A DNA stretch of 64,000 nt. It comes from Thermoguttaceae bacterium (GTDB lineage Bacteria; Planctomycetota; Planctomycetia; Pirellulales; Thermoguttaceae). The translations under genes were made by a program, and so were the position numbers. The stretch covers positions 62,001-126,000 of the forward strand of contig JANXBW010000005.1 in NCBI GenBank assembly GCA_025060325.1, in the 5' to 3' direction. The notes below the pieces were generated by a model that saw nothing but the letters and a program-made list of their open reading frames with translations, ran no database searches and had not been told where the DNA came from. The number at the start of each line of letters is the position of its first letter. The stretch's first letter is position 1. Shown here piece by piece: positions 5,002 to 20,077 of the stretch.

Positions 5002-5015
5002 AAGACGACTAGCGA

Positions 5016-8000
5016 CTATCCTGGTTGATTATCCTTGCCGGCATAAAGGAGATAGTAAACAATCGGCACCACTACCATGGTGAAGGCCGTGGAGGCAAAG
5101 ATCCCGAAGATAATCGCCCAGGCCAACCCTGAGAAAATCGGGTCGAGGGTAATGACCCAGTTTCCAAGCAACGTGGTGCCGGAAGTAAGGAAAATCGGCC
5201 GGGCCCGGACCGCCACACTGCGAACAATCGCTTCGCGGAGGTCAAAGCCTTCGGCCTGAGCGTGTTGGATAAAGTCGATAAGAACCACAGAGTTCCTAAC
5301 GACGATACCAGCCAGGCCAATCATTCCGATCATTGCCGTTGCCGTGAAGAAGACTGGGTTGGGATAACCCCCGATCGGCCAGTTGACGAGCAAATTGAGG
5401 AACCAAAAGCCCGGCATGATGCCAATCGCCGTTAGCGGAATAGCCAGCATAATCACAAGCGGAAGCACCCGCGAGCCGGTTTCGAACATAAGTAGCACGA
5501 AGATAGCCAATAGCGCCACCGCAAAAGCGATCCCCAAGTCGCGGAAGACATCAAGGGTGATTTTCCACTCGCCTTCGCCGGCCCAGTGGACTTCGAAACC
5601 GGCCGGCACCGTCCAGGGAATGCCTCCCCCCGGTGCCAACCAGGTCCGTTCCTCAACTGGCCGTGGCGAAGCACTCTTTGGCACTTCAGACCCGGGCGGT
5701 AGCTGGTCCAGCTGAATGTCGATGATGGCCTCGGCAGGGGGCCGGCCAGCCACCTCGGCAGTCACGTATACCACACGGCGAAGATTCTTGTGATAGATCG
5801 TTTGATCTTCAGTCTTCTGAACGAACCGTCCCAGCTCGCCTAGCTGAACCAATTGCCCGCCCTCGCCTCGTACATAAATCTCTTCCAAGTCATCGGTGGC
5901 GGAACGCAACTCCCGCGGCAAGCGTAGGATCACCCGCAGCGGATGCACTTCGTACGGGTCGTGGACTTCAGTAACAGCTTGTCCGCCCAGAGCGACGGCC
6001 AGCGTTTGGGCGATGTTTTCCCGGGAAATTCGGGAAAGTGCTGCCTTCGCTTGGTCGACTTCGAAAACCAACACCGTCTGGGGATCTTCGACCACAGAGT
6101 CAACGTCGACCACAAACGGCTCTTGGCGAAGCCGATCTTCGACGAGTTTGGCTGCCCGACAAATCGCCTGATAGTCAGCTTGGGGCGGGCCATAGACTTC
6201 GGCCACAATCGTAGAGAGTACTGGTGGTCCCGGCGGAACCTCCACCAGCTTAATGGAAGCCCCATGTTCTGCGGCGATTCTAGTCACATCGTTGCGGATT
6301 CGCAGCAGGATCTCGTGGGACTGGTGTTGACGGTATGCTTTGTCCACTAAATTGACGCGGATATCTGCTAGGTGCGATCCGTGACGCAGGTAGTACTTTC
6401 GCACCATGGCGTTAAAGTCCATCGGAGAGGGCGTACCTACATATAGTTCAAAGTCGCGTACCTCTGGCACGGTGGCCAAGTAGGCCGCCAGTCGCCGAGT
6501 GACAAAATCCGTTTGTTCCAGAGTTGTTCCTTCCGGCATATCAACAACAATTTGAAATTCGTTTTTGTTGTCGTAGGGCAACATCTTCAAAGGTATGAGC
6601 CTAAATGCGGGAAGAGCAAAGGCTGCCAAAAGAAGCATTCCCACCACCAATAAGACAAGCCAAGCATAAAGCCGCCGCGATAAGACACCGCAAAAAAATC
6701 CTCGCGACAGGCGGTAAATACCAGTTCGCGTAAGCTCAAAAGCCGGCTCCTCTGCCCGGCCATAGGATAGCGTCACCATGGCCAAGTAAGGGGTGATGAC
6801 AAAAGCCACAACTGTTGACACAGTAACTGTCAACGGAACGTTTAATGCCATTGGAGCCATGTAAGGCCCCATCATGCCCGTGATAAACATCATGGGCACA
6901 AAACAGACGATGATAGCTAGCGTTGACATAATAAGAGCCGGCCGGACTTCCTGGACGGCCCGAAGGACCGACTCCCGCGGGGGAAGAATGCGCATGGCAA
7001 AATAGCGGGCGATGTTTTCCACGTCGGTGATGGGATCGTCGACCAAAAGCCCCAGAGCCAGAATCAACGCAAACAGCGTAACGCGGTTAATCGAATAACC
7101 TACAAGGTAGTTGATAAAAAGCGTGACCCCATAACAGATGGGTACGGCCAGGGCAACAACCAAAGCTGCTCGCCAGCCAATGACCACACCAATGAGCCCC
7201 ACCACCGTGATGATCGCGATCACAAGCGATTCGACGAGCTCGTTGACTTTATCGTTGGACGTCTCCCCGTAGTCTCGCGTGATCCGGTAGTAAACCCCCG
7301 GTGGCAAGATGCATTCGGGCGATAGGGGATCGGCAAGGGCTTCCATGCGGCGTTCGACAGCTTGCGCCACCCATACCGCATTGCTTCCTTTTCGCTTAGC
7401 GACCGCAATATGGACAGCGGGGAAAAGCTGCCCCGGAGTAATGTCTGCCTCAGCCGGCGTTGTGGCCTTTTGGCCTCCGGCCGGCTGCGAAGTGGCCAAG
7501 TCCGCAGCATGTGTGTTTACCGAAACAGTAAACGGCGAACGAGGATCTTTGGGCCTTCGGGGAGTCGTCCCGGCCGGACCAAAGCCAATCCAACTGTAGT
7601 GTTCTGGCTCGGCAGGCCCGTCAATCACCTCGGCCACTTCCTTAAGATAAACCGGCCGACCATTAACCACTTGAATGACAAGTTCCTCTAACTGCCATTT
7701 GTCGCGAATATGCGGGCCGGCTTCCACAATGAACTCTTGATTCTGTTGATCAAATCTGCCGGCCCGAATGTTTACGTTGCTCACCTGAAGAGCGCGCACC
7801 ACATCAAGCGGTGCGACGGCCTTGGCCGCCAGTTCCATCGGGCGAAGAAGCACCCGGATCTGCCGCGGCCGACCTCCAACGACATAAACGCGGTTGGTGT
7901 TAGGGATGCGCTGAAGTTCGTGTTCAATCTGCTCGGCTAACCGCCGCAATTCATGATCGCCGTAAAGATCGGGACGGTCGGACCACAGCGTCAGGATGAG

Positions 8001-8441
8001 AATAGGGACATCGTCAATTTCCACTGGCTTTACCACCCAACTTTGCACGCCGGGCGGCACCTGGTCGATATTGGAATAGATCTTGTTGTAAAGCTTGGTG
8101 AGCGAATCTTCGCGATCTTCGCCGACATAGAATCGCACAGTCACCACACATTGCCCGGGCCGACTCATGGAATAGACGTATTCCACACCGTCAATCTGGT
8201 AGAGGAGCTTTTCCAATCGCAGGGCAATTTGTTGTTCAACTTCCAGGGCAGAAAGACCAGGGGCATTTATCAAAACATCCGCGATGGGCACAACAATTTG
8301 AGGCTCCTCTTCGCGAGGAGTGACGATGAGGCCGGCCACACCCATCGCCAAAGCTGCTAGTGTCAACGTGGCGACGAGGTCCCCACGCAAGAACAGGCTG
8401 ACAATCCTTGTAAGAAAGGGAACCCCTCCTGCCTCAGCCAT
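5016..8441 (-). CDS. RND efflux pump inner-membrane permease
   Basis: An 1141-residue RND-superfamily transporter (AcrB/CusA-like; PF00873), a proton-driven inner-membrane pump that works with a periplasmic adaptor and outer-membrane channel. An N-terminal helix is followed by a large periplasmic loop, a block of six helices, a second periplasmic loop and a C-terminal helix block ending in GIVVRNSVVLIDFI and STAFTMVVVP. Helix 4 has LLVDDPITDVENI; the adjacent acidic pair is the expected proton relay. The DVENI form resembles heavy-metal (HME) pumps more than drug (HAE1) pumps, but the family here is intermediate and the substrate is unassigned. The ATG at 8441 has GGGAG 9 bases upstream. It ends 14 bp from the convergent GH32 gene. 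The adaptor gene lies 546 bp upstream on the same strand. Confidence 0.92.
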   Translation of the reverse strand: MAEAGGVPFLTRIVSLFLRGDLVATLTLAALAMGVAGLIVTPREEEPQIVVPIADVLINAPGLSALEVEQQIALRLEKLLYQIDGVEYVYSMSRPGQCVVTVRFYVGEDREDSLTKLYNKIYSNIDQVPPGVQSWVVKPVEIDDVPILILTLWSDRPDLYGDHELRRLAEQIEHELQRIPNTNRVYVVGGRPRQIRVLLRPMELAAKAVAPLDVVRALQVSNVNIRAGRFDQQNQEFIVEAGPHIRDKWQLEELVIQVVNGRPVYLKEVAEVIDGPAEPEHYSWIGFGPAGTTPRRPKDPRSPFTVSVNTHAADLATSQPAGGQKATTPAEADITPGQLFPAVHIAVAKRKGSNAVWVAQAVERRMEALADPLSPECILPPGVYYRITRDYGETSNDKVNELVESLVIAIITVVGLIGVVIGWRAALVVALAVPICYGVTLFINYLVGYSINRVTLFALILALGLLVDDPITDVENIARYFAMRILPPRESVLRAVQEVRPALIMSTLAIIVCFVPMMFITGMMGPYMAPMALNVPLTVTVSTVVAFVITPYLAMVTLSYGRAEEPAFELTRTGIYRLSRGFFCGVLSRRLYAWLVLLVVGMLLLAAFALPAFRLIPLKMLPYDNKNEFQIVVDMPEGTTLEQTDFVTRRLAAYLATVPEVRDFELYVGTPSPMDFNAMVRKYYLRHGSHLADIRVNLVDKAYRQHQSHEILLRIRNDVTRIAAEHGASIKLVEVPPGPPVLSTIVAEVYGPPQADYQAICRAAKLVEDRLRQEPFVVDVDSVVEDPQTVLVFEVDQAKAALSRISRENIAQTLAVALGGQAVTEVHDPYEVHPLRVILRLPRELRSATDDLEEIYVRGEGGQLVQLGELGRFVQKTEDQTIYHKNLRRVVYVTAEVAGRPPAEAIIDIQLDQLPPGSEVPKSASPRPVEERTWLAPGGGIPWTVPAGFEVHWAGEGEWKITLDVFRDLGIAFAVALLAIFVLLMFETGSRVLPLVIMLAIPLTAIGIMPGFWFLNLLVNWPIGGYPNPVFFTATAMIGMIGLAGIVVRNSVVLIDFIQHAQAEGFDLREAIVRSVAVRARPIFLTSGTTLLGNWVITLDPIFSGLAWAIIFGIFASTAFTMVVVPIVYYLLYAGKDNQPG

Positions 8442-8537
8442 CGAGCGTTACTCCCTTAGCAGGTAGCCGCGAGACTTTTGCATGGTTTGACTGGTAAGCG
8501 GAAAAGTCGTCCCCTTCCCGGTGCTCTGGCAGCCTTG

Positions 8538-8556
8538 CCAAATCCCAACGATTTGG
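8538..8556 (-). repeat. Inverted repeat upstream of RND pump gene
   Basis: Perfect 7-bp arms CCAAATC / GATTTGG around a 5-base loop, extendable by two wobble pairs. It lies about 97 bp upstream of the pump's start codon. There is no T-run after it on either strand, so an operator or structured leader is as likely as a terminator. Confidence 0.5.
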
Positions 8557-8916
8557 TGCCATCCCTCCCCCGGCGCCGGCGTTTGCCTTCTAACAGTCAG
8601 AGACTTGGGCCCTAAGCCCGGAAGTTAATAGCAAAAAGTATAGCGATTAACGGAGCCCATGATACCGGTCCGAATATTAGGAACAATTTCGCGGAGATCT
8701 TTTTTGCGCAGCGTGGGGCCGGGCGATTTGGGCCAGTGCCTACAAACTGCATCCTCTGCCGACAGGCGACGGCAGAAAAGCGCGGCTGTTAGGGCTCCGG
8801 CATGCGATAGCTCCCGATCGGAGAGGATTGATGGACCGGCAAGCCCTATTTGACGGAAATAGAACCGCGGCCGGAAGCTGGCTTAGCGACTGCCCATCGT
8901 TCTAGAAAAGGGTAAG

Positions 8917-8938
8917 CCACCAAGCAAGAACTTGGTGG
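8917..8938 (-). terminator. Hairpin downstream of RND adaptor gene
   Basis: Perfect 8-bp arms CCACCAAG / CTTGGTGG with a 6-base loop, about 50 bp past the adaptor stop codon. On the minus strand it is followed after a short gap by CCCTTTTCT, so it could be a weak intrinsic terminator. A further 6-bp GC-rich hairpin at 8954-8969 lies between it and the stop. Confidence 0.45.
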
Positions 8939-8987
8939 GCGAAATGACAAGCCCGGGCCACTTGGCCCGAATATCATGGACCTGGTG

Positions 8988-10295
8988 TCACTGGGGGGCG
9001 GACGCTGCGGTCTGTGGCGGATTGGGGCATTCGGCCGGATTAGCCGCCGCAGGCGTGGGCGTACTACCGCCCGCCACACTTTGAGCGCTTGCCTGAAGCC
9101 CCCGGGTCAACGCGGCTGCCCGCTCGCTCATTTCCTTCAATTCTCGCTCCATCTGATCCGCGGTAGCTTTAGGGACGAGGATTGCTTCGCCGGGAGAAAG
9201 CCCACTCAGCACTTCCACCCAAGCTCCGTAGCCGCGTTGGCCTGTTTTAATGAGGCGGCGTTCCACAGCTCCGGTATTTCGGTCCAAGAGAACCTTAACG
9301 AATTCAAGCTGACCGATCCTCTCGATAGCCCCTGAGTGAAGGCATAAATGCCGGCGAACGCCGGCGGGAATAACAAGCCGACCGAACATCCCTTCGAAAA
9401 GCGCAGGATCTTCGGGAAGCTTAACTTTGATCAGAAACGATCGCGTCATTGCTTCCGCTTGAGGCACCTTCTCATCGACAATACCTTCAAACTCCCGCTT
9501 GAGGGAGTCGACGTACACGCGGAGTCGGTCACCCACGTTGACATGAAGTCCCAAGTTTTCCATCACCGCCACTTCCAGCCGCAGTGACCGCGGATCGTAA
9601 ATCGTTAGCAGCGGGACACCCGGCTGGGCAATGTCGCCTTCTTCCGCCAGGCGGTCAACCACGATCCCGTTTTGTGGTGCACGGATGGTCGTGTAATCAA
9701 GTCTTACACGGGCCTCGGCTACCGCCTGCTCGGCTTTGGCGCGATTGGCTTCGGCTGCCCGATACTGACTCTCCAAAGCGTTGAATTCCTGCTGCGAAAT
9801 AGCACCCGGGTTGGTCTCCCGAACTCTCTGTGCCCGCTGGTACTGGTCAAGTGCCTGCGCAAAACTCGCCTTGGCGGCTTCAAGGGCTGCTTCGGCCTGG
9901 CGGAGTTGGGCTTCGAAGGCCTCGCGGTCAAGCTCGATTATGACTTGGCCTGCTTCTACCGGATCCCCGGCCCGGACCGAAATTCGGACAATTCGCGCCA
10001 TGACCCGGGCGGCGACATTGGTCCGCCGCGCCGCCCGAAGGGTTCCCATCGCTTCCTGGAAAAAAGGCTTTTCGCGGACCTCCACCGGCACCAGGGCATA
10101 CTGACTCAAGTCCACGGTGGGGATTGCAGCCTCTGCCGTCGCTTCCGGGGAGATTTTGGGAGTAAACACCCCAGCGAACCAGGCCATGGCGACTGCGAGA
10201 ACGATGATCCCTCCAATGACAAGGAGAGGGCGAGCTACCCCGCCAGCCCTGCGGGCTGGGAAAAGCTTCATCTTTCCCCCACAAAGACTCCCCAT
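8988..10295 (-). CDS. RND efflux periplasmic adaptor (membrane fusion protein)
   Basis: A 435-residue HlyD/AcrA-type adaptor that bridges the inner-membrane pump and the outer-membrane channel. One N-terminal membrane helix (about residues 20-38: LLVIGGIIVLAVAMAWFAG) is followed by a lipoyl/barrel-sandwich half (VRAGDPVEAGQVIIELD), an alpha-helical hairpin rich in Ala/Gln/Glu (EAQLRQAEAALEAAKASF and the EANRAKAEQAV return helix), the second lipoyl half (TTIRAPQNGIVVDRL.EEGD), beta-barrel and membrane-proximal domains. The frame is open further upstream, but the ATG at 10295 is preferred for its GGGAGGA site 5 bases upstream; ATG 10271 is a weaker choice. The C-terminus is Pro/Ala-rich. It pairs by strand and order with the RND pump; no outer-membrane factor gene is in the window. 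Confidence 0.9.
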   Translation of the reverse strand: MGSLCGGKMKLFPARRAGGVARPLLVIGGIIVLAVAMAWFAGVFTPKISPEATAEAAIPTVDLSQYALVPVEVREKPFFQEAMGTLRAARRTNVAARVMARIVRISVRAGDPVEAGQVIIELDREAFEAQLRQAEAALEAAKASFAQALDQYQRAQRVRETNPGAISQQEFNALESQYRAAEANRAKAEQAVAEARVRLDYTTIRAPQNGIVVDRLAEEGDIAQPGVPLLTIYDPRSLRLEVAVMENLGLHVNVGDRLRVYVDSLKREFEGIVDEKVPQAEAMTRSFLIKVKLPEDPALFEGMFGRLVIPAGVRRHLCLHSGAIERIGQLEFVKVLLDRNTGAVERRLIKTGQRGYGAWVEVLSGLSPGEAILVPKATADQMERELKEMSERAAALTRGLQASAQSVAGGSTPTPAAANPAECPNPPQTAASAPQ

Positions 10296-10695
10296 CGTAG
10301 TCCTCCCTTGCCGAAAACTTTTCGTGTGATCTCCCATGTTCAACTCGTATGAGGCTGCCAAGGACTTTTTCCGTCTTGCTCCGAGCAATCTGATGTCTTG
10401 CCAAGCAAGTTGCAAGGCGGTGCGAACCAAGTGCTTCTGTAGATTGTTCTCGGGGGTAAAGGTGAAGTGTATCCCCCTTTGCCGCAGGCGGAAAATCATT
10501 GTCCAACGCAAGAGCTGGCTTTCCTCCCAGGGAGCCAAGCCTTCCGAGGGTTGCCGTTTGGGAAAGCCGTCCTGGGGGCATCTAACCTGATCTTTTCAGC
10601 CGCAGCACCACGTCCCCGGATGCTCTACCTGCGGCACCCATCCGCTGAAGACGACCAGTCTTTGAGCACGAGCTGGGCTGGTGCCCTCCTCTCCC
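10296..10695. other. Gene-free spacer
   Basis: Apart from an in-frame upstream extension of the adaptor that lacks coding character, nothing is recognised here. The segment separates the adaptor gene from the bd-like oxidase genes. Confidence 0.5.
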
Positions 10696-11853
10696 CTAAT
10701 TTGCCTCTCTGGTTGTGGTCATTAGATTCCGCAGTACTTGCACGATCATCCAACTCACGACAGCTATTCCCATGATGAGCGTCACCACGAACAGCAGGAA
10801 TGGACTCCATTGGAAAGCGACCGGTCGCCCCCAAAATTCGTACCGGTTGGACAGCTGCAGAGTGAAGAGATCGGCCCAAATTCGCAGAAAGCCCACACAA
10901 ACCAAGTAAACAATGTGGAGGCCGACACACATCACCACGGTTTTCGGCGAAAGCGGTGCCTGCCGCCCAGAAGCGTTGAGGAGTACGCTTCCAATTGCGA
11001 TGGGGATTAGCACTGCTACCAAGCCGGGGACGACCCCAGGTAGTTGACCTACAACCGCGGAGATTTGAGCCCCCGAACTCTGGCCTAAATGGTAAAGATA
11101 GCCTAGTCCGAACACTAAAGCCCCGACAAACCCCGGCAAATAAATTCGCGAGGCCAACCGAGCGGCCAAACGCCTGTCTTCAACCGTTGCGCTCGGCCTA
11201 AAGATAGAGGCGTCTAAGACCATCCAGCATGCAGTTGTTTGCAGGGCCAGTGAGAAGATAAACAACCACCGCGGCCAAAACACTGGATCGTCTATGTTGA
11301 CAGTAAGTCCCGTTGCTGCTCCGGCCACTTGGGCCCGCTCCCAAAGGGTCTCCCAACGTTCCAAACGGAAAGTGAAGCTAAATCCATTTGCAAACAAAAA
11401 GCCGATAGCAACAAACAAGCATCCGGCGATTATCCCGACTGCCAATCGCCACGGAGCTATCGGCTTGTCGACGGGTATACCGTCCCAACCGTAAAGATAA
11501 ACACCGTAGTAGGCCGGTATCAAAAGCGCAATAATGGCCAGCCAAAACCAACCAACCAGTATTGTGGCCGAATAAACGACCGGGCCGAACCCAGCCTGGA
11601 GAAAAAGGAGTGGCACGATCCCCAAATTGACCCCAAGAGCCACAATGACGGGCATTTGCAGCATGAGCCGGCGAGAAATTTGTCGCAGGCTAAGGTTTTG
11701 CGATCGCGCCATCAGGACCGCCAAGGGGATCCCGGCATACCAGAGTCCCATAAAGGCGGCATGGAGGGCAAAGCCCAGTGTCCTTAGGGCGATTATCATC
11801 CACTGGGGAACACCGTATTGCACCGGAAAACTGTTGTCGACAAATCCCAGCAT
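10696..11853 (-). CDS. Cytochrome bd-like oxidase second membrane subunit (CydA'-like)
   Basis: A 385-residue integral membrane protein with about nine predicted helices. Its first helix carries FALHAAFMGLWYAGIPLA with His31, a layout like the first helix of CydA (where the His binds haem b595) and like the first helix of the protein encoded just upstream. It does not look like a standard CydB. It lies 54 bp downstream of the bd-like subunit with the cytochrome c domain, on the same strand, so the two are probably co-translated partners. The overall picture is a CydA/CydA'-type pair in the bd superfamily. The start ATG at 11853 has only a weak ribosome-binding site. Assignment rests on topology, the His motif and the partner; confidence in the exact subfamily is modest. 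Confidence 0.65.
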   Translation of the reverse strand: MLGFVDNSFPVQYGVPQWMIIALRTLGFALHAAFMGLWYAGIPLAVLMARSQNLSLRQISRRLMLQMPVIVALGVNLGIVPLLFLQAGFGPVVYSATILVGWFWLAIIALLIPAYYGVYLYGWDGIPVDKPIAPWRLAVGIIAGCLFVAIGFLFANGFSFTFRLERWETLWERAQVAGAATGLTVNIDDPVFWPRWLFIFSLALQTTACWMVLDASIFRPSATVEDRRLAARLASRIYLPGFVGALVFGLGYLYHLGQSSGAQISAVVGQLPGVVPGLVAVLIPIAIGSVLLNASGRQAPLSPKTVVMCVGLHIVYLVCVGFLRIWADLFTLQLSNRYEFWGRPVAFQWSPFLLFVVTLIMGIAVVSWMIVQVLRNLMTTTREAN

Positions 11854-11907
11854 CGTCAGGCTCGCTCGTCTTATGAGATACCGCTTAAGCTCAACACGGA
11901 AAACCCT

Positions 11908-13308
11908 TTATGGCTGAAGACTGGCATGTGAGGACACAATGCCCTGTTGGATAGTGGTCTTCGGCCGGGGTGGAGCCAGGGTAGCCAAGTATTCGGCCAG
12001 TAATTCCGCCTCCTCTTCCCGCCCGCACCAGGGCGGCATGTAAAAATACGGATCATTGAGATTGAGGATAAGCTCCTTAAGCTTCTCCTTATCCATCCCG
12101 CGAATGAGGGGAGCCACGGCCGAATAGCCAAATCGCTCGGCATGGCAGTCGTTGCAATGATACAGGAAGAGAAGCCTGCCAATCTCTACCCGCTCCTCGG
12201 GCGCAAGTTCCCGAAGTTTGACATAGTCCACCCTGCCTTGCTCCACTAGCGCAGGAAAGCGATTTTGGAGATATGCTTTCGTCCACAAACCGGACTCGAT
12301 ATAACCCTGTTCCCGAAGTCGTCCCACCTCCTGGACAAATACCTGGTTACCCAGAACCACATCGTAAACGACATAGGGCTTGCGAATTGCCTCACGAATG
12401 AATTCGGCTAAGCTGAACGCGGCAAGTCCCATCAGAAAGAGGATGGCCGCAAATCCCGGACTAAGCCACTGAGGAAACCGAATAGGCCCGAGCCACGCAA
12501 AAAGAACTACCATTGTCGTTAGGGCAACAAAAAGCGCGGCAAATACGGTAATTACTGGGGCCGACTGAATCACCGCCTTGGCCGCTTCGGGCAAGACAAA
12601 GAATCCCCAACCCACTCCAAGACCGACTAAAGCTACCCCCAGGCCCACCGGGAGCGCGGACCGAGTTTGCACAAGCATGCGAAGCCGTGTGTCGGCCAAA
12701 AAGATCGATGCATGAAGGTAAACGTAAAGCGACGCCAGCAGAAAAGCCCCACCCGTCCGGGCAACTACCTGGGGCCAAAACTGAGGATTCAAAAACCCGT
12801 CCCAGAAACTGCCCGTCTGAGGCCAACTCCCCGGGTGAAGCATAAAGGAAGTAATTCCCGTAATGAGCACCAAGCTGACCCAAGCTGCCCAGGCATAAAT
12901 CCAACCTAAGGCTTGGTGAAGCCAGGCGGGGATGCGATTCCAGCAGTAGAGAAACAGGAAAGCTGAAGTTAGTTCCATAACAAAAAAGACCCACTCGGTC
13001 GCCCAGCCAAAAACGAAAACCTGGATCAAAAGTGCGGTGGCCAGCGGGCTGGCAAGGCCAATGGTCCACCAGATTCCCACCCCGGTGATGGCGCCGAAGA
13101 CAACCGTTATCAGAATAAAAAACCGGGCATGCCGGCGGAGATATTCCAGGTATTCCCGGTCCTGTGAGCGATAAGCGTAGGTAACTTCCCGAGCAAGAAA
13201 GAAACCGCCACCCACCGCATAATGAGCCACAAGGACGTGCAAGGTGGCAATCACAGCAATAAGCATGGGGCCAGTTAGCCCCGGAACATACCACCAAGGA
13301 AAATGCAT
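11908..13308 (-). CDS. Cytochrome bd-like oxidase subunit I with C-terminal cytochrome c domain
   Basis: A 466-residue membrane protein of the CydA superfamily (PF01654-like). Helix 1 has ATLHVLVAH: His24 aligns with E. coli CydA His19, the b595 ligand. A later helix has two glutamates (E106 and E113, in ATEWVFFVMEL) resembling the E99/E107 pair near haem d/b595. The position matching CydA His186 (b558 ligand) is not His (QVVARTGGAF), and no Q-loop-like insert is evident. After the last helix (ending near residue 310) a soluble tail holds CNDCH at 385-389 and YMPPW, the covalent haem c site and probable Met ligand. The likely role is dioxygen reduction with electrons from a c-type carrier. 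The ATG at 13308 follows a G-rich site. It forms an operon with the downstream CydA'-like gene. Confidence 0.8.
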   Translation of the reverse strand: MHFPWWYVPGLTGPMLIAVIATLHVLVAHYAVGGGFFLAREVTYAYRSQDREYLEYLRRHARFFILITVVFGAITGVGIWWTIGLASPLATALLIQVFVFGWATEWVFFVMELTSAFLFLYCWNRIPAWLHQALGWIYAWAAWVSLVLITGITSFMLHPGSWPQTGSFWDGFLNPQFWPQVVARTGGAFLLASLYVYLHASIFLADTRLRMLVQTRSALPVGLGVALVGLGVGWGFFVLPEAAKAVIQSAPVITVFAALFVALTTMVVLFAWLGPIRFPQWLSPGFAAILFLMGLAAFSLAEFIREAIRKPYVVYDVVLGNQVFVQEVGRLREQGYIESGLWTKAYLQNRFPALVEQGRVDYVKLRELAPEERVEIGRLLFLYHCNDCHAERFGYSAVAPLIRGMDKEKLKELILNLNDPYFYMPPWCGREEEAELLAEYLATLAPPRPKTTIQQGIVSSHASLQP

Positions 13309-14498
13309 CGTCGACCCCCCAAAGGGACTCTGCCGTAAAACCGAGGGAGTTTACCACCAGCTGAGCGCTAAAGTTGCCAAGCCTTCATTTCGGTCAAGAA
13401 GTCGGCCCACCCGAGCTGCCCGCCATGGTCATTCGGGAACAGTTGGACATGCCGGTTAATGTCGCCAAGACCGGCGCCTACTCGACGGGTAGACACCCCG
13501 GCTTCAGACAACCGCCGGTAGGAGTTCAACCGCACCTTCTTGACGGATGAATGCCGACCAGCTCCCCCACCCCATTTTCGCCGAAACTTTTGGACATAAA
13601 TTGTAATCCGTCCAGACCGCCGGAGAAAGTCCGCCGTCTTTGCGCTCGAGATTCTACTGCATCTGGGAGATGGGCGCGGCAGTTAGGGGATGAGCGCGGC
13701 CTAGGCGGTCGGAAAATGGGCTTGGACCGGGCGGTAGCTCGTTTTCAGCTAAACGGGGCTTCTTAATCACTGGGTAACGGAAGGTTGCCTTTAAACTTGG
13801 AGGCAACCCTCGGGAGGGGGCGATGTTAACAGCGGCTTACAAGGGCCAACGGCGGCGCAATCACCCGTTTAGAAAGGTGTGGTGGTGTATTTCTTGATCC
13901 CAGCCTGATGCACGGGCCTGCGGAATGCCCGGCGCCAAACGCGGGCTGAGGCACAAAGTTCCGGACCGGTGCTTGGATCCATCTTTAGGGGCTAGGTAAT
14001 GTTTTCAGTGTGGGTGATCCGCCTTGGTCGTTTATCCAAGCCGTCTCGCTTTTATTTTGCCCTATTTTTTGTTGCGATGCGTTCCGGCCGGTGTGGGATT
14101 TGCAAGTCGGGAGTTCGCTGTGCCCGATTCGTGAAGTTAAGGGGCAAACCCCTTAGGATGTTCACTTGGCGCGCTGTGCATAGGTCGCGGTCTCGAGGCA
14201 AAGTCGTCCACAAAAAGAATCCCTCGCATGCTTACCACGCGAGGCCACCCTGGGAAAGAAATGCAGCCCAAGATTCCTTTTCGTGTAACGCTCGACTGAG
14301 AAGGCGGTCTTCAGGTGGGCACCTTGCTTCCCGGTTTTCCTTGGGGTGGAGCGGGAAAAGGTTAGGCTCTCCGCAGTGGAATAAAAAGCCCAAAGTAGCT
14401 CGATTGTTCAATTTAGTCAGCTGTGGGCATTTCAATGGCGGGAAACCCGGCCGAAGGGCTTTACCGGTTTTTCTCGAGAGACCTGTGGGGGCCACTGC
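13309..14498. other. 1.2-kb gene-poor spacer
   Basis: A 167-codon plus-strand frame at 13999-14502 ends in a GTGA overlap with the next gene, but its Arg/Ser/Lys-rich composition and lack of any domain argue against it. Nothing else recognisable is seen. Confidence 0.45.
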
Positions 14499-15872
14499 GT
14501 GAGTAATCTGCCTGAGCTGACAAATCCTTTTGCCGTTTGTCCCGGTGTTCCTTTACCGCGTTTTGCCCACGTTTGGAAAAACGCACTTCGCATTGTGGAT
14601 AAATCCCTGCTTAGGGAGTGGCTTAATAGGTTTCGCAGCGGCAAGGTCGGTGGAGCGGTGATAGGTGCCGGGTGGATGGGCACCGTGGTGGCTGCCCGCT
14701 ATGCCGCCCTGGGAATACCGGTCTGTCTTGTCGACACAAACAAGGACGCATGCCAACAGGCTCTTGTCCGGATCGGCGGTCTTTTACCGCATTTGGGTGT
14801 TGTTCCAAGTCCACCTAGCTTTGAAAGCCTGGCGAGCCGCATTCGATTTGTAGATGATTTGAGCGACTTGCCGCCGGTACTTTTTGTGGCTGAATTCGTC
14901 ACGGAATCAATCGCACGAAAAAGGCGTGTCTTGGCCGAGCTTGAGGCGGTTCTTCCGCCGGCAACCCCAATAATTAGCGGCAGCTCGGCCATCCCCGTTG
15001 CTTTCCTTGCCGCTTGCCTCAGGCATCCGGAAAGATTAGTCAACTGCCATTTCTTTCATCCGTTGTATCCTTTTGAGGGGCGAAGACCGGCCGAGCTTGT
15101 TGTCAGTGGAAAAACCTTGCCCGATGCGATAGCCGCGGGAATTGTCCATATTCTCTGCCAACGATGCGTCCCAGTTCTTGTCCCAGATGAGCCGGGGTTC
15201 CTTGCAAACAGGTTGTTGTTTGCGTATCTAAGAATGGCCGTTCGCCTTCTTGCATGGGGAGTAAGCCCGGGCAATCTGGAGTCAAGCACCTCGTTTCTCG
15301 GCAATTGGTGGCAGCCCTTGCGGCGGTTGGATGAAATCGGCCTCGACACGGCCCTGCGGGTGGGCCGTCTGATGGCCGAGCCAACCACCGGGGCTGTGCA
15401 CCTGCCAGCACATGACTGGGAACTTCTTGCGGAGTGGGTTGCACGTGGACATACCGGCAGAAAGGTTGGCAGGGGTTTTTACCTTTATGGGGTAGGGCAA
15501 GAGAAGGCTCCGGAACTTATCGCGGACTTCGAAGCCTACTTATGCTTGCGTCGACCTACTAAGCCGGTGACACCAGCTTTCGTCGTGGCCGCCCTCGTCT
15601 TGGCACTAGCTGGGGAGGCTGAAAGCCTACTTACGAAATGGGGTTGGGAGGTCCTCGATGTCGTGGACTTCCTTGCGAGTGGGGGTCTTCGCCTCCCGAG
15701 ATGGACCGGCGGGCTTACCCGTTGGCTTACTTACTTGGAACCGGGCACGGCTCTGCCCCTCTTCCAGCAGGTGATGGAGGAAGGGCTGTGCGAAGAGAAA
15801 GCGGTGCCAAGTTGGGAGAAGTTGCGGGCATCTCGATGGGGCAAAGCGGTCGTTGATCGTCACGGGTGTTAA
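14499..15872 (+). CDS. 3-hydroxyacyl-CoA dehydrogenase family protein
   Basis: A 457-residue protein with an N-terminal NAD-binding Rossmann domain (GAGWMG at 56-61, preceded by a ~48-residue extension) and two C-terminal 3HCDH-like helical segments (DEPGFLANRLLFAYLRMA, then GRKVGRGFYLYG). The catalytic His is visible in CHFFHP; most family members have HFFNP, so the Asn is replaced by His. The enzymes oxidise L-3-hydroxyacyl-CoA to the 3-keto form in beta-oxidation or butyrate-type pathways, but no enoyl-CoA hydratase or thiolase is adjacent, so the acyl substrate is unknown. The GTG at 14499 has a GGGGG-containing site upstream; the long N-terminal extension leaves room for a later start. 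Confidence 0.8.
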   Translation: MSNLPELTNPFAVCPGVPLPRFAHVWKNALRIVDKSLLREWLNRFRSGKVGGAVIGAGWMGTVVAARYAALGIPVCLVDTNKDACQQALVRIGGLLPHLGVVPSPPSFESLASRIRFVDDLSDLPPVLFVAEFVTESIARKRRVLAELEAVLPPATPIISGSSAIPVAFLAACLRHPERLVNCHFFHPLYPFEGRRPAELVVSGKTLPDAIAAGIVHILCQRCVPVLVPDEPGFLANRLLFAYLRMAVRLLAWGVSPGNLESSTSFLGNWWQPLRRLDEIGLDTALRVGRLMAEPTTGAVHLPAHDWELLAEWVARGHTGRKVGRGFYLYGVGQEKAPELIADFEAYLCLRRPTKPVTPAFVVAALVLALAGEAESLLTKWGWEVLDVVDFLASGGLRLPRWTGGLTRWLTYLEPGTALPLFQQVMEEGLCEEKAVPSWEKLRASRWGKAVVDRHGC

Positions 15873-15954
15873 TAGATTAGAGGATCTTTAGGAGCTTGCC
15901 TTTCTCCGGCCGGATTGCCGAATTGAAGTGGTGCGCTCAACCTGAGTCGCGCTT

Positions 15955-15973
15955 GACAGATTGCCCTTCTGTC
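15955..15973. terminator. Hairpin in convergent intergenic region
   Basis: Perfect 6-bp arms GACAGA / TCTGTC with a 7-base loop, lying between the convergent 3-hydroxyacyl-CoA dehydrogenase gene and the sigma factor gene. There is only a weak T-rich tail, so terminator activity is a guess from position. Confidence 0.3.
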
Positions 15974-16055
15974 GATTAATTCCAGACGGGGCCCGGGGTA
16001 AGCCAGGAGCTCGCGCCCGAGTTGCTTGCTCGGCCGGGAGTAGGAGAGAGGCAGG

Positions 16056-16838
16056 CTAGTCAGCCAGCTCGGCTTTTCGCTTGGCTAGCTGCTCCTGGAG
16101 ACGCTGAACAATAGCGCTATGCATTTGGCTTACGCGGCTTTCGGAAAGATCAAGGGTTGCCCCAATTTCTTTCATCGTGAGTTCTTCATAATAGTAGAGG
16201 ATGATGATCAGGCGCTCATTACGGCTTAGCCCCTTGGTAATGAGCCGCATTAGATCCGCTTGCTCGAGCCGCTTGGTAGGATTTTCCCCCTTTTTGTCCT
16301 CCAAGATGTCAATTTCGCGGACATCTTTGTAGCTATCAGTTTCGTACCATTTCTTGTTGAGGCTGATTAAGTTGACGGTGTTGGCCTCGGACATCAGCTT
16401 TTCCAATTCGTCCACGCTGATGCCCAAGTGCTCTGCCAATTCAGTTTCGGTAGGTTGCCGGCCCAATTTGGCCTCTAGCGTCTGAATGGCCTCGTTCAGT
16501 TTGCTTGCTTTGGAGCGCACCAGCCGGGGGACCCAGTCCATCGTGCGAAGTTCGTCAAGCATCGCCCCCCGGATCCGCGGTACACAATAGGTTTCAAACT
16601 TCACCCCGCGGTCGAGGTCGAAAGCCTCGATGGCATCAATGAGGCCGAAAACCCCTGCCGAGATCAAATCGTCAAGGTCCACCCCCTCAGGAAGTCGGGA
16701 CCAAATTCGCTCGCCGTTATATCGGACAAGCGGCATGTAAATTTCCACAAGCTTATTGCGAAGTTCGATGTTGGAGGGATCTTTCTTGTATTCGCGCCAG
16801 AGCTGTTCGATTTCCTCAGGTGCAAGGGTGGTAACCAT
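16056..16838 (-). CDS. fliA: FliA/WhiG-type sigma factor (sigma-28 family)
   Basis: A 260-residue alternative sigma factor with region 2 (DLISAGVFGLIDAIEAFD, then FETYCVPRIRGAMLDELR), region 3 (EAKLGRQPTETELAEHLGIS) and region 4 helix-turn-helix (MKEIGATLDLSESRVSQMH). The FETYC..RIRGAMLDELR string and the overall length are hallmarks of the flagellar FliA/WhiG group, which directs core RNA polymerase to late flagellar and chemotaxis promoters. The ATG at 16838 is chosen for its AGGGAGGA site 4-5 bases upstream; a longer frame to 16895 lacks support. It closes a minus-strand run flhA, flhF, flhG-like and fliA, the order known from many flagellated bacteria. No anti-sigma factor FlgM is seen in the window. 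Confidence 0.92.
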   Translation of the reverse strand: MVTTLAPEEIEQLWREYKKDPSNIELRNKLVEIYMPLVRYNGERIWSRLPEGVDLDDLISAGVFGLIDAIEAFDLDRGVKFETYCVPRIRGAMLDELRTMDWVPRLVRSKASKLNEAIQTLEAKLGRQPTETELAEHLGISVDELEKLMSEANTVNLISLNKKWYETDSYKDVREIDILEDKKGENPTKRLEQADLMRLITKGLSRNERLIIILYYYEELTMKEIGATLDLSESRVSQMHSAIVQRLQEQLAKRKAELAD

Positions 16839-17071
16839 CGAATCCTCCCTGAATTTCCACTCCATCAATTTCCGACAATGGTTATGAGGAAGCACCCGAG
16901 TCGTACGCTAGTGTTCGCATCCTGCAGGCCGGGCCGCGTGGGGCTTTAAAGTTAGCCATCTGGTGCAAGCCACACAGTCGTTGTTGTAAAGGGGATCAAT
17001 AACTCCCCGTGGCACGCTGCGGCTATCGCTTTTGTCAACAATATCACCTTGGTCGGAGGGCCGGTCGGGGT

Positions 17072-17257
17072 TTAGCCGGGCAAGCGGCAGATTTCCTCAG
17101 CCAGCACGCCGACCACATAGCCGACGGCGGCAAGCGCAATCAAATGCAGCCAGGCGCATAAAAGTACACTTTCCTCTGGTGCGCCCTCCAACATGCCGGC
17201 AGCAACGGAGGCTGCACTTCCCAGAGGTCCAAGTGTAAGGGCAAAAATCCGCGCCAC
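17072..17257 (-). CDS. Small membrane protein between flhG-like and fliA genes
   Basis: A 61-residue frame opening with GTG at 17257, with GAGG 6 bases upstream. Residues ~32-52 (LLCAWLHLIALAAVGYVVGVL) form a plausible single membrane helix followed by a short charged tail. I do not recognise the family. Support is the ribosome-binding site, the coherent hydrophobic segment and its place in the flagellar gene run; the frame also stays open some 20 codons further upstream. It could be a chance frame. Confidence 0.4.
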   Translation of the reverse strand: MARIFALTLGPLGSAASVAAGMLEGAPEESVLLCAWLHLIALAAVGYVVGVLAEEICRLPG

Positions 17258-17536
17258 TTGATGCCTCGGCGAAAGCCAAATCCTATCCCGAAGACCAAGG
17301 CCAAAATGTCCCCTACTTCATGTGATCGGCAGCCGACGGACTAACGTTAACTTTTTCTGCGGAGACGGCACAACGCCTAGCAGAGGAGATACCGCTCCGT
17401 TCGGTACTCTGCGGTAAATTCCGCGTGGGCTGACCGGCGCTTGCGTCGTACCCCGGCTTAAGTCAAAGACATGACCGGGCCTTATTTGCGCGACGAGCTA
17501 TTCACCCGGTCAACAATCCAAAAGTTATCACCCACG

Positions 17537-18427
17537 TTAGTGAATTTCTGCGGATTCCCTGATGAGCACACTGGCAAGCTGAGCTGCAGCTTCCTGCAAA
17601 GCTGAGTATTCGGCCCTTGTTTCCCGGGGGAACGAAGCCTGAGTTACGGTGTAAGTCTCCCTCTGGAGGGGGATTACCCCACCCAAAAGAGGCCTAATTC
17701 CCAAGAATTCCTCCATCGCCCCGATTAACAGACGAAAGGAGCGATGGGCCTCCTTGTGGGACTCGGCCAGGAAAATCATGACCACGGTGGCCGGGTAAGA
17801 TCGCATTCGCTTGACCTGAAGGTGTGTTCCGACCAAAGCCTCCCTGCTTGTCCGGCTAAACAAAATGACAAAGTGCGATCGCTTCCACCAGGCGGTTGTC
17901 CAGGTGTCGCAAGCCCTTCTACCTGCCGCTATCACCCAGGCATAATCCCTCAAACGCATCCTGCCAAAGTACTCGGGAAGTTTCGCCTCAGGGACAACGG
18001 ACTGGTAAACACCCTCGAGGATCTGGCTCGTCTGCCACTCGTATGGGTCGGGGGGTAAGGTTGTTGCCGAAAGGGGTTGCTCTGTCGGGAAAAGTACGGT
18101 CCCTTCCGTTCCAACCGAATCCAACCACCTGCGGTCGGTAATTCCCGGGGACCATTCGCGCGCGGGTTGTGGACTTATAAGCGAGGGCCCTTGAGGTCCG
18201 CCGAAACTTAGGAAGGAAGACTGACCTTTCGGATGGCAGGTCAGGGCCGGTTTATGTTTTTGGGCGCACTCGCTGGCAAGGAGCGTGGCCACGATGTCGG
18301 CTTCTTGGGCCGTTAGCGCGCCAGTCACAAGCACGGTTGTTGGACGGCCGAGTAAACTCCGCGGGGTTATCGCCCGGTTTCCTGCGTTTAGGACAAGTGA
18401 AGCTGCTTGATGCGCCGCAAAAACCAT
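17537..18427 (-). CDS. Degenerate FlhG/MinD-like protein (P-loop lost)
   Basis: A 296-residue protein not recognised by strong motifs. Residues 31-56 (TVLVTGALTAQEADIVATLL and onward) look like the start of a ParA/MinD-type NTPase, where VTSxxGGxGKT should stand; here no Gly-rich loop or Lys remains. Residues 161-190 (RDYAWVIAAG, then HFVILFSRTS) resemble the Walker-B strand and the following strand with the catalytic Asp lost. Residues ~225-258 (EAHRSFRLLIGAMEEFLGI then GVIPLQRE) resemble the FlhG segment ending in an LG.IP element. It sits between flhF and fliA, exactly where flhG/fleN normally lies. I infer a non-ATP-binding FlhG relative affecting flagellar number or placement with FlhF. 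The ATG at 18427 has a poor ribosome-binding site. Confidence 0.6.
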   Translation of the reverse strand: MVFAAHQAASLVLNAGNRAITPRSLLGRPTTVLVTGALTAQEADIVATLLASECAQKHKPALTCHPKGQSSFLSFGGPQGPSLISPQPAREWSPGITDRRWLDSVGTEGTVLFPTEQPLSATTLPPDPYEWQTSQILEGVYQSVVPEAKLPEYFGRMRLRDYAWVIAAGRRACDTWTTAWWKRSHFVILFSRTSREALVGTHLQVKRMRSYPATVVMIFLAESHKEAHRSFRLLIGAMEEFLGIRPLLGGVIPLQRETYTVTQASFPRETRAEYSALQEAAAQLASVLIRESAEIH

Positions 18428-18874
18428 GGGTGAGTTGCTAGTTCGGGCACCTGCGAAGAAAGCTAAAGAGTTAAGTTAGTGACTACTGATTGCGTTTATG
18501 AAGGCGGCTAATCAATTCTTCGATCGGTCCGTCATGCCGCTTTCGCCGAAGAAAGAGGGTTCGGCTCACAATTACCCTTTTGCCACTGCGCCACGCCGAC
18601 CGGCATCCTTACCGGTGCGAATTATGTTTATGGCGGACGGGCGACCTGGTTATCCACACCTCCGGGCGATGCCGCTTGTTATTAGCGACTTTCAGCTCGA
18701 CAGGTCATGGCCAGTTGACACTTATTCTTTTTCGCTGGAGCAGTTTGCCAACATTATGAAGGGCCTTTCTGGGAATTTTCCAGAAGAGCCAAACCGCGCG
18801 TGCTTTTTGTGCGCTCGACATGCCGAATAAAAAGACACCCTTCTGCTTCCAGTCGGCCGGCGATGTAAGCGTTC
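18428..18874. other. Spacer between flhF and the flhG-like gene
   Basis: A 110-codon plus-strand frame at 18498-18830 has no recognisable domain and lies opposite to the run of flagellar genes; I do not call it. No strong hairpin or promoter is seen. Confidence 0.45.
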
Positions 18875-20077
18875 TTAGTGCCTTTTGACTGATTCCCAGC
18901 CCAGGAGAAGTCGGGCAAGTCGGGAGATCTCCGCTACTTCGATATCCTCAGGCACATTTTGGCCCGTTGTCAAGTAGCTTAGTGGTAACCGGCAGGTCCT
19001 TAAAAGTGGCAGCAAATGCCCCAGGGTATTTGCCTCGTCCAATTTGGTAAGGATTAGCGCGGTCGTGCCTACGTTCGCGAATTGTTCGGCCGTTAGTTGA
19101 AGTGTCTTCGGAGCGGCCACAGCACTAAGCACAAGGTGAACTTCGTCGGCCCGAGCCTCGGTGAGGAATGCTTTTAGCTCCTGAAGCTTGATTTCGTCAC
19201 GTGGGCTCCGCCCGGCTGTGTCCATAAGGATGAGATCGAGGTGCTCGAGCCGGCGGACTGTCTCCCGCATCTCTCGGGGGGTGGCAACAACATGCATGGG
19301 AAGGTCGATGATCTCGGCATAGGTCCGCAGTTGCTCCACGGCAGCAATTCGATAGGTGTCGACGGTGATCAGGCCGACGTTGCGACGCTCCCGAAGGCGA
19401 TAATGGGCAGCCAGCTTCGCGATGGTCGTAGTTTTTCCGACACCTGTTGGACCTACAAGGGCGACTAACCGGCGTCGTCCTGGCTCCACGGCAATGGGGC
19501 CGGTTGTGCTTAGTCCTTCTTCAACCAACCGGCACAAATGTGCCCGCAGCAGTTTAGGATCAAGTAGATCCGGTCCACTTGTCGACTGCCGGACCCTTTC
19601 GACGTATTCTCGAGCCAACTCTTCGGGGACATCCGCCTCGATCAAATCGGTGAACATCCGGAAAAGCGACTCGGGCAGTTCCCCCGCCTGACCCCCTCGA
19701 GACCGCTGGCACAATTCCCGCACCATGCCATGCAGGTCGATGATTTTGCCTGCAATTTCGCGCGACCAACGAGGGCCAAAAGGGTCAGAATTGGGTGCGG
19801 CAACCGCCTCAGTGCGAGCTTCCGGAGCTTTCACGGCCGAGGGGGCAGCAGATACCGTCCTGGGTGGTTGGTAAACAGGCTCAGGGGCCAATTTGTAGGG
19901 AACGCGCACCCCGCAGGAAGCAGTAACTTCGATCTCCCGGGTGCCTGGCAAAAGGCCGAAAAGTCGGCTTCGACGGACTTCGCGTGCATGAAGAATGGCA
20001 GCGTCCGGGCCAAGCTCCCGGCGGATGATCTCCATGGCCTCCTGCATTGTGGCTGCCCGATAGGTGCGGATCTCCAT
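18875..20077 (-). CDS. flhF: Flagellar biosynthesis SRP-type GTPase FlhF
   Basis: A 400-residue signal-recognition-particle-family GTPase that recruits early flagellar components to the cell pole. The N-terminus (MEIRTYRAATMQEAMEIIRRELGPDA) is the typical FlhF B-domain start, followed by a variable Pro/Ala-rich linker, an N domain, then the G domain with GPTGVGKTT (about 209-217), the DTYRIAAVEQLRTYAEI insertion-box region, DTAGRSPRD and TKLDE. The ATG at 20077 is preferred: GGAGGT lies about 10 bases upstream and the protein starts at the conserved MEIR. A TTG at 20095 is possible. It is preceded by flhA (827 bp away) and followed by the degenerate FlhG-like gene, which would normally be its regulator. 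Confidence 0.95.
   Translation of the reverse strand: MEIRTYRAATMQEAMEIIRRELGPDAAILHAREVRRSRLFGLLPGTREIEVTASCGVRVPYKLAPEPVYQPPRTVSAAPSAVKAPEARTEAVAAPNSDPFGPRWSREIAGKIIDLHGMVRELCQRSRGGQAGELPESLFRMFTDLIEADVPEELAREYVERVRQSTSGPDLLDPKLLRAHLCRLVEEGLSTTGPIAVEPGRRRLVALVGPTGVGKTTTIAKLAAHYRLRERRNVGLITVDTYRIAAVEQLRTYAEIIDLPMHVVATPREMRETVRRLEHLDLILMDTAGRSPRDEIKLQELKAFLTEARADEVHLVLSAVAAPKTLQLTAEQFANVGTTALILTKLDEANTLGHLLPLLRTCRLPLSYLTTGQNVPEDIEVAEISRLARLLLGWESVKRH

Follow-up and report, generated by a model that had tools for sequence, protein, structure and literature searches.

How would an oxidase of the cytochrome bd type receive its electrons if the ligands of haem b558 were gone and a cytochrome c domain were attached to the same chain? 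The question is raised by two adjoining genes in a stretch of 64,000 nucleotides (called here the window) from a Thermoguttaceae bacterium (GenBank assembly GCA_025060325.1, contig JANXBW010000005.1, positions 62,001 to 126,000). Gene A (11908..13308, minus strand) encodes a 466-residue protein that Pfam, profile alignment and a structural model identify as a CydA-like subunit I with eight transmembrane helices (TM1-TM8) and a C-terminal cytochrome c domain. Gene B (10696..11853, minus strand), separated from A by 54 bases, encodes a 385-residue, nine-helix partner that appears from hhalign, a model and fold searches to be a paralogue of A (CydA'-like). A first-pass annotation, made from the letters of the DNA, had already placed both genes at these coordinates and had correctly picked out His24 and the two cytochrome c motifs of A, and His31 of B. 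We put the probability at roughly 0.7 that A and B form a two-subunit oxygen reductase of the bd superfamily that takes its electrons through the attached cytochrome c and not from quinol, as judged from residue patterns and predicted folds.

The evidence comes from comparison with relatives. One scan for relatives of A returned at least 568 stretches, and the best 80 of these at least 568 are the loci examined here. The A alignment has 79 rows, namely A of the window and 78 sequences from 77 of the 80 loci; L095 and L112 are omitted because contig ends truncate them, L111 because it is a gene fusion, and L113 gives two rows. An earlier alignment held 25 relatives. The B alignment has 53 rows; the B sequences of L049, L059 and L111, whose open frames are overlong, do not enter it. 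CydA is represented by the E. coli sequence together with 30 others taken from Planctomycetota genomes, 31 rows in all. Structures were predicted from 64 A rows and 49 B rows, with A and B modelled separately as single chains. Organism labels of the relatives are those of the deposited titles, mostly of metagenome-assembled genomes (MAGs), and some may be wrong.

That A belongs to the bd superfamily is indicated by homology to CydA, by the CydA fold and by the residues of the high-spin haems, all of which are found in it. Pfam PF01654 (Cyt_bd_oxida_I) matches residues 17-229 (4e-15, 55.7 bits, cut-off 26.2), and hhalign aligns the A profile with the CydA rows over 188 columns (98.3% probability, E 1.2e-14). 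The predicted model (mean pLDDT 92.7, pTM 0.89) superimposes by VIA-align on subunit I of E. coli bd-II (7ose_A) with Z 33.6 and a root-mean-square deviation (rmsd) of 2.4 over 315 residues, and Z runs from 30.3 to 33.6 across the ten listed bd subunit I entries; subunits of alternative complex III are the next neighbours by fold, at Z 18.1-19.6. Foldseek also retrieves bd chains (E 1.1e-7), with an rmsd of at least 5 and TM scores of 0.5-0.6 by query, a poor superposition of the sort to be expected from an extra domain. The eight-helix core spans residues 1-323 (12340..13308, minus strand), as delimited by the superposition on 7ose_A, conservation and alignment. The possibility that the pair represents some other membrane family, which the first-pass annotation had left standing, gives way to the homology and fold found here.

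In E. coli CydA, H19, E99, E107 and E445 are residues of the two high-spin haems of the active site, and H186 and M393 are the ligands of haem b558. Papers devoted to E445, E99 and E107 appear by title in the reference list of PMC8951039. Profile alignment pairs H24 of A with H19, E105 with E99, E112 with E107 and A183 with H186, and the C-terminal helix aligned by itself sets E306-R309-K310-P311 against E445-R448-Q449-P450. The helix with two glutamates noticed in the first-pass annotation is thus real and aligns with E99 and E107, while its numbering there (E106 and E113) was one too high. H24, E105, E112, R184, E302, R305, E306, R309 and P311 are invariant in 79/79 A rows, and H19, E99, E107, E445 and R448 are each kept in 31/31 CydA rows. 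On these alignments the high-spin haem pocket is retained in A (H24, E105, E112, E306 and R309). This bears out the expectation that the haem d/b595 pocket would prove to be conserved (H24, E105, E112 and E306), with E306 a further pocket glutamate beyond those listed at first.

The b558 site presents the opposite picture. H186 and M393 are each kept in 31/31 canonical CydA rows, whereas His occurs at A position 183 in 0/79 rows, as had been read from the single sequence, and likewise in 0/79 at the neighbouring position 184, where the Arg is invariant. Within helix 7 of A (251-276), the helix that carries M393 in CydA, His reaches at most 1/79 rows in any column and Met at most 24/79. Both haem b558 ligands therefore appear to be lost in A, since position 183 is never His and helix 7 is without a conserved Met or His. 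The 78 other rows repeat this residue pattern, and so it is not a matter of chance; it predicts that the enzyme would lack a b558 signal. Three other histidines of A, H29, H131 and H199, are kept in 70/79, 71/79 and 70/79 rows, respectively. H131 and H199 were considered as bis-His haem ligands, a proposal left unsupported because they are not lost together across the rows.

The model of A contains long helices at 13-47, 51-86, 99-121, 128-157, 177-203, 207-237, 251-276 and 284-307; a further small domain, also helical, occupies about 370-444. Helices 6 and 7 are connected by 13 residues, which is too short for a Q-loop and agrees with the earlier remark that no Q-loop-like insert is present. 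The periplasm is the proper location for a cytochrome c domain. With an even number of helices, the N- and C-termini of A should lie on one side of the membrane, and the topology of CydA would make that side the periplasm. Solved CydA structures have nine helices, with the Q-loop joining helix 6 to helix 7 (PMC8951039). As modelled, A thus corresponds to CydA helices 1-8, without the Q-loop and without helix 9.

The C-terminal region of A has the features of a single monohaem cytochrome c domain (residues 372-447; 11968..12195, minus strand), as delimited by its superposition on SorU and by conservation of the CxxCH motif and M424. The motif is CNDCH at 385-389, followed by YMPPW at 423-427. 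C385, C388, H389 and M424 are present in 78/79 A rows, the lone row without CxxCH being L097, which reaches the end of its contig; M424 is a candidate for the sixth haem ligand. Pfam Cytochrome_CBB3 aligns with residues 374-441 at 20.6 bits, below its 27-bit cut-off. VIA-align of modelled residues 368-448 gives Z 7.2 to SorU (4pwa_D), and other monohaem cytochromes c score lower.

The partner is more difficult to place. B has no Pfam match, its best NCBIfam match is sub-threshold (E 0.42), and a sequence search of the PDB gives nothing up to E 10. By hhalign it aligns with A over 271 columns (97.3% probability, score 93.4), and the controls reach at most 25.9 in 30 column-shuffled B alignments and 28.0 for the reversed one. 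Plain profile searches at E < 1e-3 are weak, and so the relation between A and B rests on profile-profile comparison: the B profile, in a strict form built with A rows excluded, finds 5/79 A rows, the A profile finds 2/53 B rows, and the CydA profile finds 0/53 B rows. B scores 45.4 (65.3%) against CydA and 40.4 (27.8%) against CydB, the latter a poor alignment of 1284 columns that makes the contrast with CydA weak. By profile, then, A is a closer relative of B than CydB is, with that weak contrast in mind. The B model (pLDDT 89.5, pTM 0.90) has nine helices, and subunit I is the best chain by VIA-align in 10/10 bd entries (Z 24.6-26.6); in Foldseek the two subunits overlap (E 3.2e-4 to 1.6e-2 for subunit I and 1.2e-3 to 1.7e-2 for subunit II). 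The predicted fold of B is thus similar to that of either bd subunit, and somewhat closer to subunit I. H31, M35 and R195 are invariant in 53/53 B rows, and H31 might bind a haem; no conserved Glu matching the pocket glutamates of A was seen in the alignments.

There is good support for a heterodimer made up of two CydA-type paralogues, because B is a paralogue of A, the genes adjoin, they co-occur across genomes, and they are naturally fused in one lineage. B is present at 55/80 loci, and among 52 measured B rows it lies directly after A in 47 and before it in 5, with a gap of at most 386 bases. Among 60 related genomes, 26 have both genes, 2 have A alone, 1 has B alone and 31 have neither, and in three genomes (G010, G027 and G033) A and B sit on different contigs. 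The fusion is a single 860-codon open frame in a Planctomycetaceae MAG (L111:6001-8580; also L009). Its use as a stand-in for a model of the A-B complex was abandoned, as MAFFT had apparently aligned the B sequences with the A half of the fusion (14-19% identity). These results accord with the suggestion in the first-pass annotation that the pair is CydA/CydA'-like, both in the profile relationship and in the bd-subunit fold of B.

The genome of the window (a 4.78 Mb draft in 89 contigs, 95.6% complete) was surveyed for other terminal oxidases. Gene A is its single PF01654 match, and CydB (PF02322) has zero matches in the draft. The sole strong COX1-family match is a 792-codon open frame with a nitric oxide (NO) reductase domain that matches the solved NO reductase 3ayf (7e-185) and has no name in NCBIfam (haem-copper match L033, G000:C88:20992-22290); a second COX1 match is under the cut-off and has internal stops. 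The strong haem-copper-family match therefore looks like a quinol-type NO reductase and not an oxygen reductase, and because it is the only such match, A-B is left as the sole candidate for a membrane O2 reductase found in the draft genome and may be the one O2 reductase that this organism has. The genome also has the cytochrome c assembly family PF01578, two Cytochrome_B matches, two further CBB3-type c-type cytochrome genes above the cut-off, and no NrfD-family match.

From the retained and missing residues we infer O2 reduction with cytochrome c as the donor. A soluble or bound donor would pass electrons to haem c of A and from there straight to the dihaem site, with haem c in place of haem b558 as the point of entry. 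Protons would be drawn from the cytoplasm along a path at E112, and turnover would be electrogenic. The enzyme could serve respiration when O2 is scarce, or the removal of oxygen. A more specific version is offered only tentatively: an enzyme without b558, in which the periplasmic cytochrome c feeds the dihaem site directly and B holds a haem on His31, would be a four-haem heterodimer (haem c, two high-spin haems and one in B). If a bd-type cytochrome c oxidase of this kind exists, copper-free O2 chemistry can be connected to another electron source.

Several points weigh against the proposal of a cytochrome c-fed oxygen reductase. Without b558, haem c may lie too far from the high-spin haems for electrons to pass directly. 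The alignment of E306 with E445 is weak when taken by itself (65% probability), with the structural match of A also extending through CydA residue 462. The first-pass annotation had recommended a search for neighbouring cytochrome c donors in related genomes, and no conserved donor gene was found beside A-B at the 80 loci; isolated CxxCH-bearing neighbours occur at a few of them (for example L110, L113 and L114). B was not found in the flank examined at 25/80 loci (L095 and L112 among them), many at a contig edge, and 8 of these B-less loci are flanked on each side by 4.7 kb or more. CydD scores 276 bits in the genome of the window, where the cut-off is 435, with none above it; all 14 control genomes give CydD matches, and sub-cut-off matches are therefore of little weight. 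Finally, it is possible that a haem-copper oxidase was missed in a draft that is 95.6% complete.

The alternative that survives best, though we rate it somewhat below even odds, concerns the job of the enzyme rather than its electron path: along the identical route, A-B might detoxify oxygen or peroxide instead of conserving energy. Strict anaerobes are protected from O2 by cytochrome bd (PMC6964889), and the record titles of several carriers mention goat or water-buffalo gut compartments. At 4/80 loci (L037, L038, L045 and L090; Pfam-checked for L090), pyruvate:ferredoxin oxidoreductase and a DHODH-like gene precede A and B in one direction. These loci form two close tree pairs (L037/L045 and L038/L090), and their records are labelled Planctomycetota, Acidobacteriota and unclassified. 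Pyruvate:ferredoxin oxidoreductase is oxygen-sensitive, and its position beside A-B hints at protection from oxygen. Against this, no stress-gene neighbourhood was recognised within positions 5000-20000 of the window, and the conserved E105 and E112 suggest ordinary proton-coupled O2 chemistry.

A second alternative, which we consider unlikely, keeps quinol as the donor, bound at a site that has not been observed in CydA, and makes haem c an exit or a sensor, so that the pair would act as a quinol:cytochrome c oxidoreductase resembling alternative complex III, or as a carrier in the reverse direction. The same proposal has been published for the long bd-like oxidases of nitrite oxidisers (PMC3578206), A is nearest in fold, after the bd chains, to subunits of alternative complex III, as noted above, and the lack of an NrfD-family match in the genome could also be taken in its favour. 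However, the residues of both high-spin haems, for which a simple quinol:cytochrome c carrier has no need, are invariant, and the Q-loop is missing. Reduction of NO instead of O2 is more improbable still, as a quinol-type NO reductase is already encoded in the genome and the pocket residues are those of the O2-reducing CydA. The idea of a degenerate, non-catalytic relic or improper bd oxidase, for which one might cite the discounting of delta-proteobacterial chimaeras for lack of cydB in PMC5322542, is scarcely tenable given pocket residues that are invariant in 79/79 rows across distant phyla and a co-occurring A-paralogue partner in place of CydB, which likewise accompanies the Desulfofustis, Desulfuromonadales and Geobacter copies.

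Returning to the cytochrome c-fed oxygen reductase, its relatives form a distinct and widespread kind, since the best 80 of the at least 568 stretches span many phyla: Planctomycetota, Acidobacteriota, Chloroflexota, Armatimonadota, Bacteroidota, Ignavibacteriota, Thermodesulfobacteriota and several candidate phyla. Within the phylum of the window, 22 of 149 genomes have some match to the A alignment, partial CydA or other cytochrome matches included, and 10 match it at more than 200 bits. A quick maximum-likelihood tree of 58 rows places 36 c-fused rows on one side (support 100) and groups 16 canonical CydA rows (99) and, separately, 6 long bd-like proteins that have no haem c (99); the label "OR-N-like" used for these long rows is our own. 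Among named rows, the nearest tree neighbour of A is from an uncultured Thermogutta (L035). In 8/8 of the long bd-like proteins the H186 position is still His and the next residue is Arg, and none of them has CxxCH; A keeps the Arg of this His-Arg pair (R184) and has lost the His. Because the long bd-like (8/8) and canonical (31/31) proteins keep this His, its loss sets the c-fused group apart from the other two in the comparison, so far as these alignments go.

There is variation within the c-fused group. The Desulfofustis and Geobacter genes (L107:1256-3019 and L114:6001-7755) have three CxxCH motifs in A, with a B-type partner adjoining, and a B partner is likewise present beside the Desulfuromonadales copy of A. 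An Ignavibacteriae MAG has a tandem pair of c-fused A genes followed by B (L113:4698-7293). In six planctomycete loci (L087, L089, L099, L101, L104 and L106), A is 651-821 residues long and has a long insert ahead of the cytochrome c; four of the six have CNCCH, none has B in the flank examined, and some of the records are titled goat or buffalo gut.

Downstream of A-B in the window lie genes for an RND periplasmic adaptor (8988..10538, minus strand, start uncertain; TIGR01730, 5.9e-55) and an RND permease (5016..8441, minus strand; PF00873, 2.9e-145). Homologues of both occur near A-B in the same 7/80 other loci. The two genes are neighbours of A-B and at most candidates for a link to the enzyme.

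The kind of protein to which A belongs is already in print, and the window pair is another member of it. Murali et al. 2021 reportedly defined OR-C as a bd subunit I core without a quinol site and with a C-terminal cytochrome c fusion. A shares both of these features, the fused C-terminal cytochrome c being evident from CxxCH in 78/79 rows. By this definition, OR-C is the most likely subgroup of the window pair. The scheme divides the superfamily into qOR, OR-C and OR-N, as described in PMC13189123 and PMC10839748. No experimental study of the c-fused kind, and none of cytochrome bd in Thermogutta, was recognised in the open-access literature searched. What is added here is an argument, residue by residue, for a dihaem site that has no b558, together with an E445 equivalent that A has kept, an eight-helix topology and a paralogous partner.

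The other two subgroups fit less well. Canonical CydAB (E. coli bd-I and bd-II) has in common with A-B the fold of helices 1-8, the high-spin haem ligands and glutamates, and two large subunits. A-B differs in being without the Q-loop, helix 9, H186 and M393, in the fused cytochrome c, and in a partner nearer to A than to CydB; the b558 ligands, Q-loop and CydB partner that characterise canonical qOR are thus all absent. The long bd-like oxidases of anammox bacteria and nitrite oxidisers, OR-N in the 2021 scheme, resemble A in having no Q-loop and differ in having 14 predicted helices as against eight (both points from PMC3578206). They also lack CxxCH, keep the His at the H186 position and form a separate clade, A being the opposite in each respect; with its haem c and shorter subunit, A falls outside OR-N. 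A CydA-CydA' pairing has been proposed for these long oxidases too (PMC10839748).

Another published counterpart comes from Degli Esposti et al. 2015 (PMC5322542), who described more than 50 delta-proteobacterial genomes in which cydA is fused to multiple c-type cytochromes and cydB is absent, and who excluded these chimaeras as not proper bd oxidases for want of cydB. They may be the Desulfofustis, Desulfuromonadales and Geobacter copies that are found here with B. A paralogous B that matches no Pfam or NCBIfam model in our searches may explain why the second subunit of the chimaeras appeared to be missing. Like them, A consists of a CydA core fused to cytochrome c with no cydB, and the three CxxCH motifs of relatives L107 and L114 are a further likeness; unlike those multi-c chimaeras, A of the window has one haem c, and the paralogous B replaces cydB.

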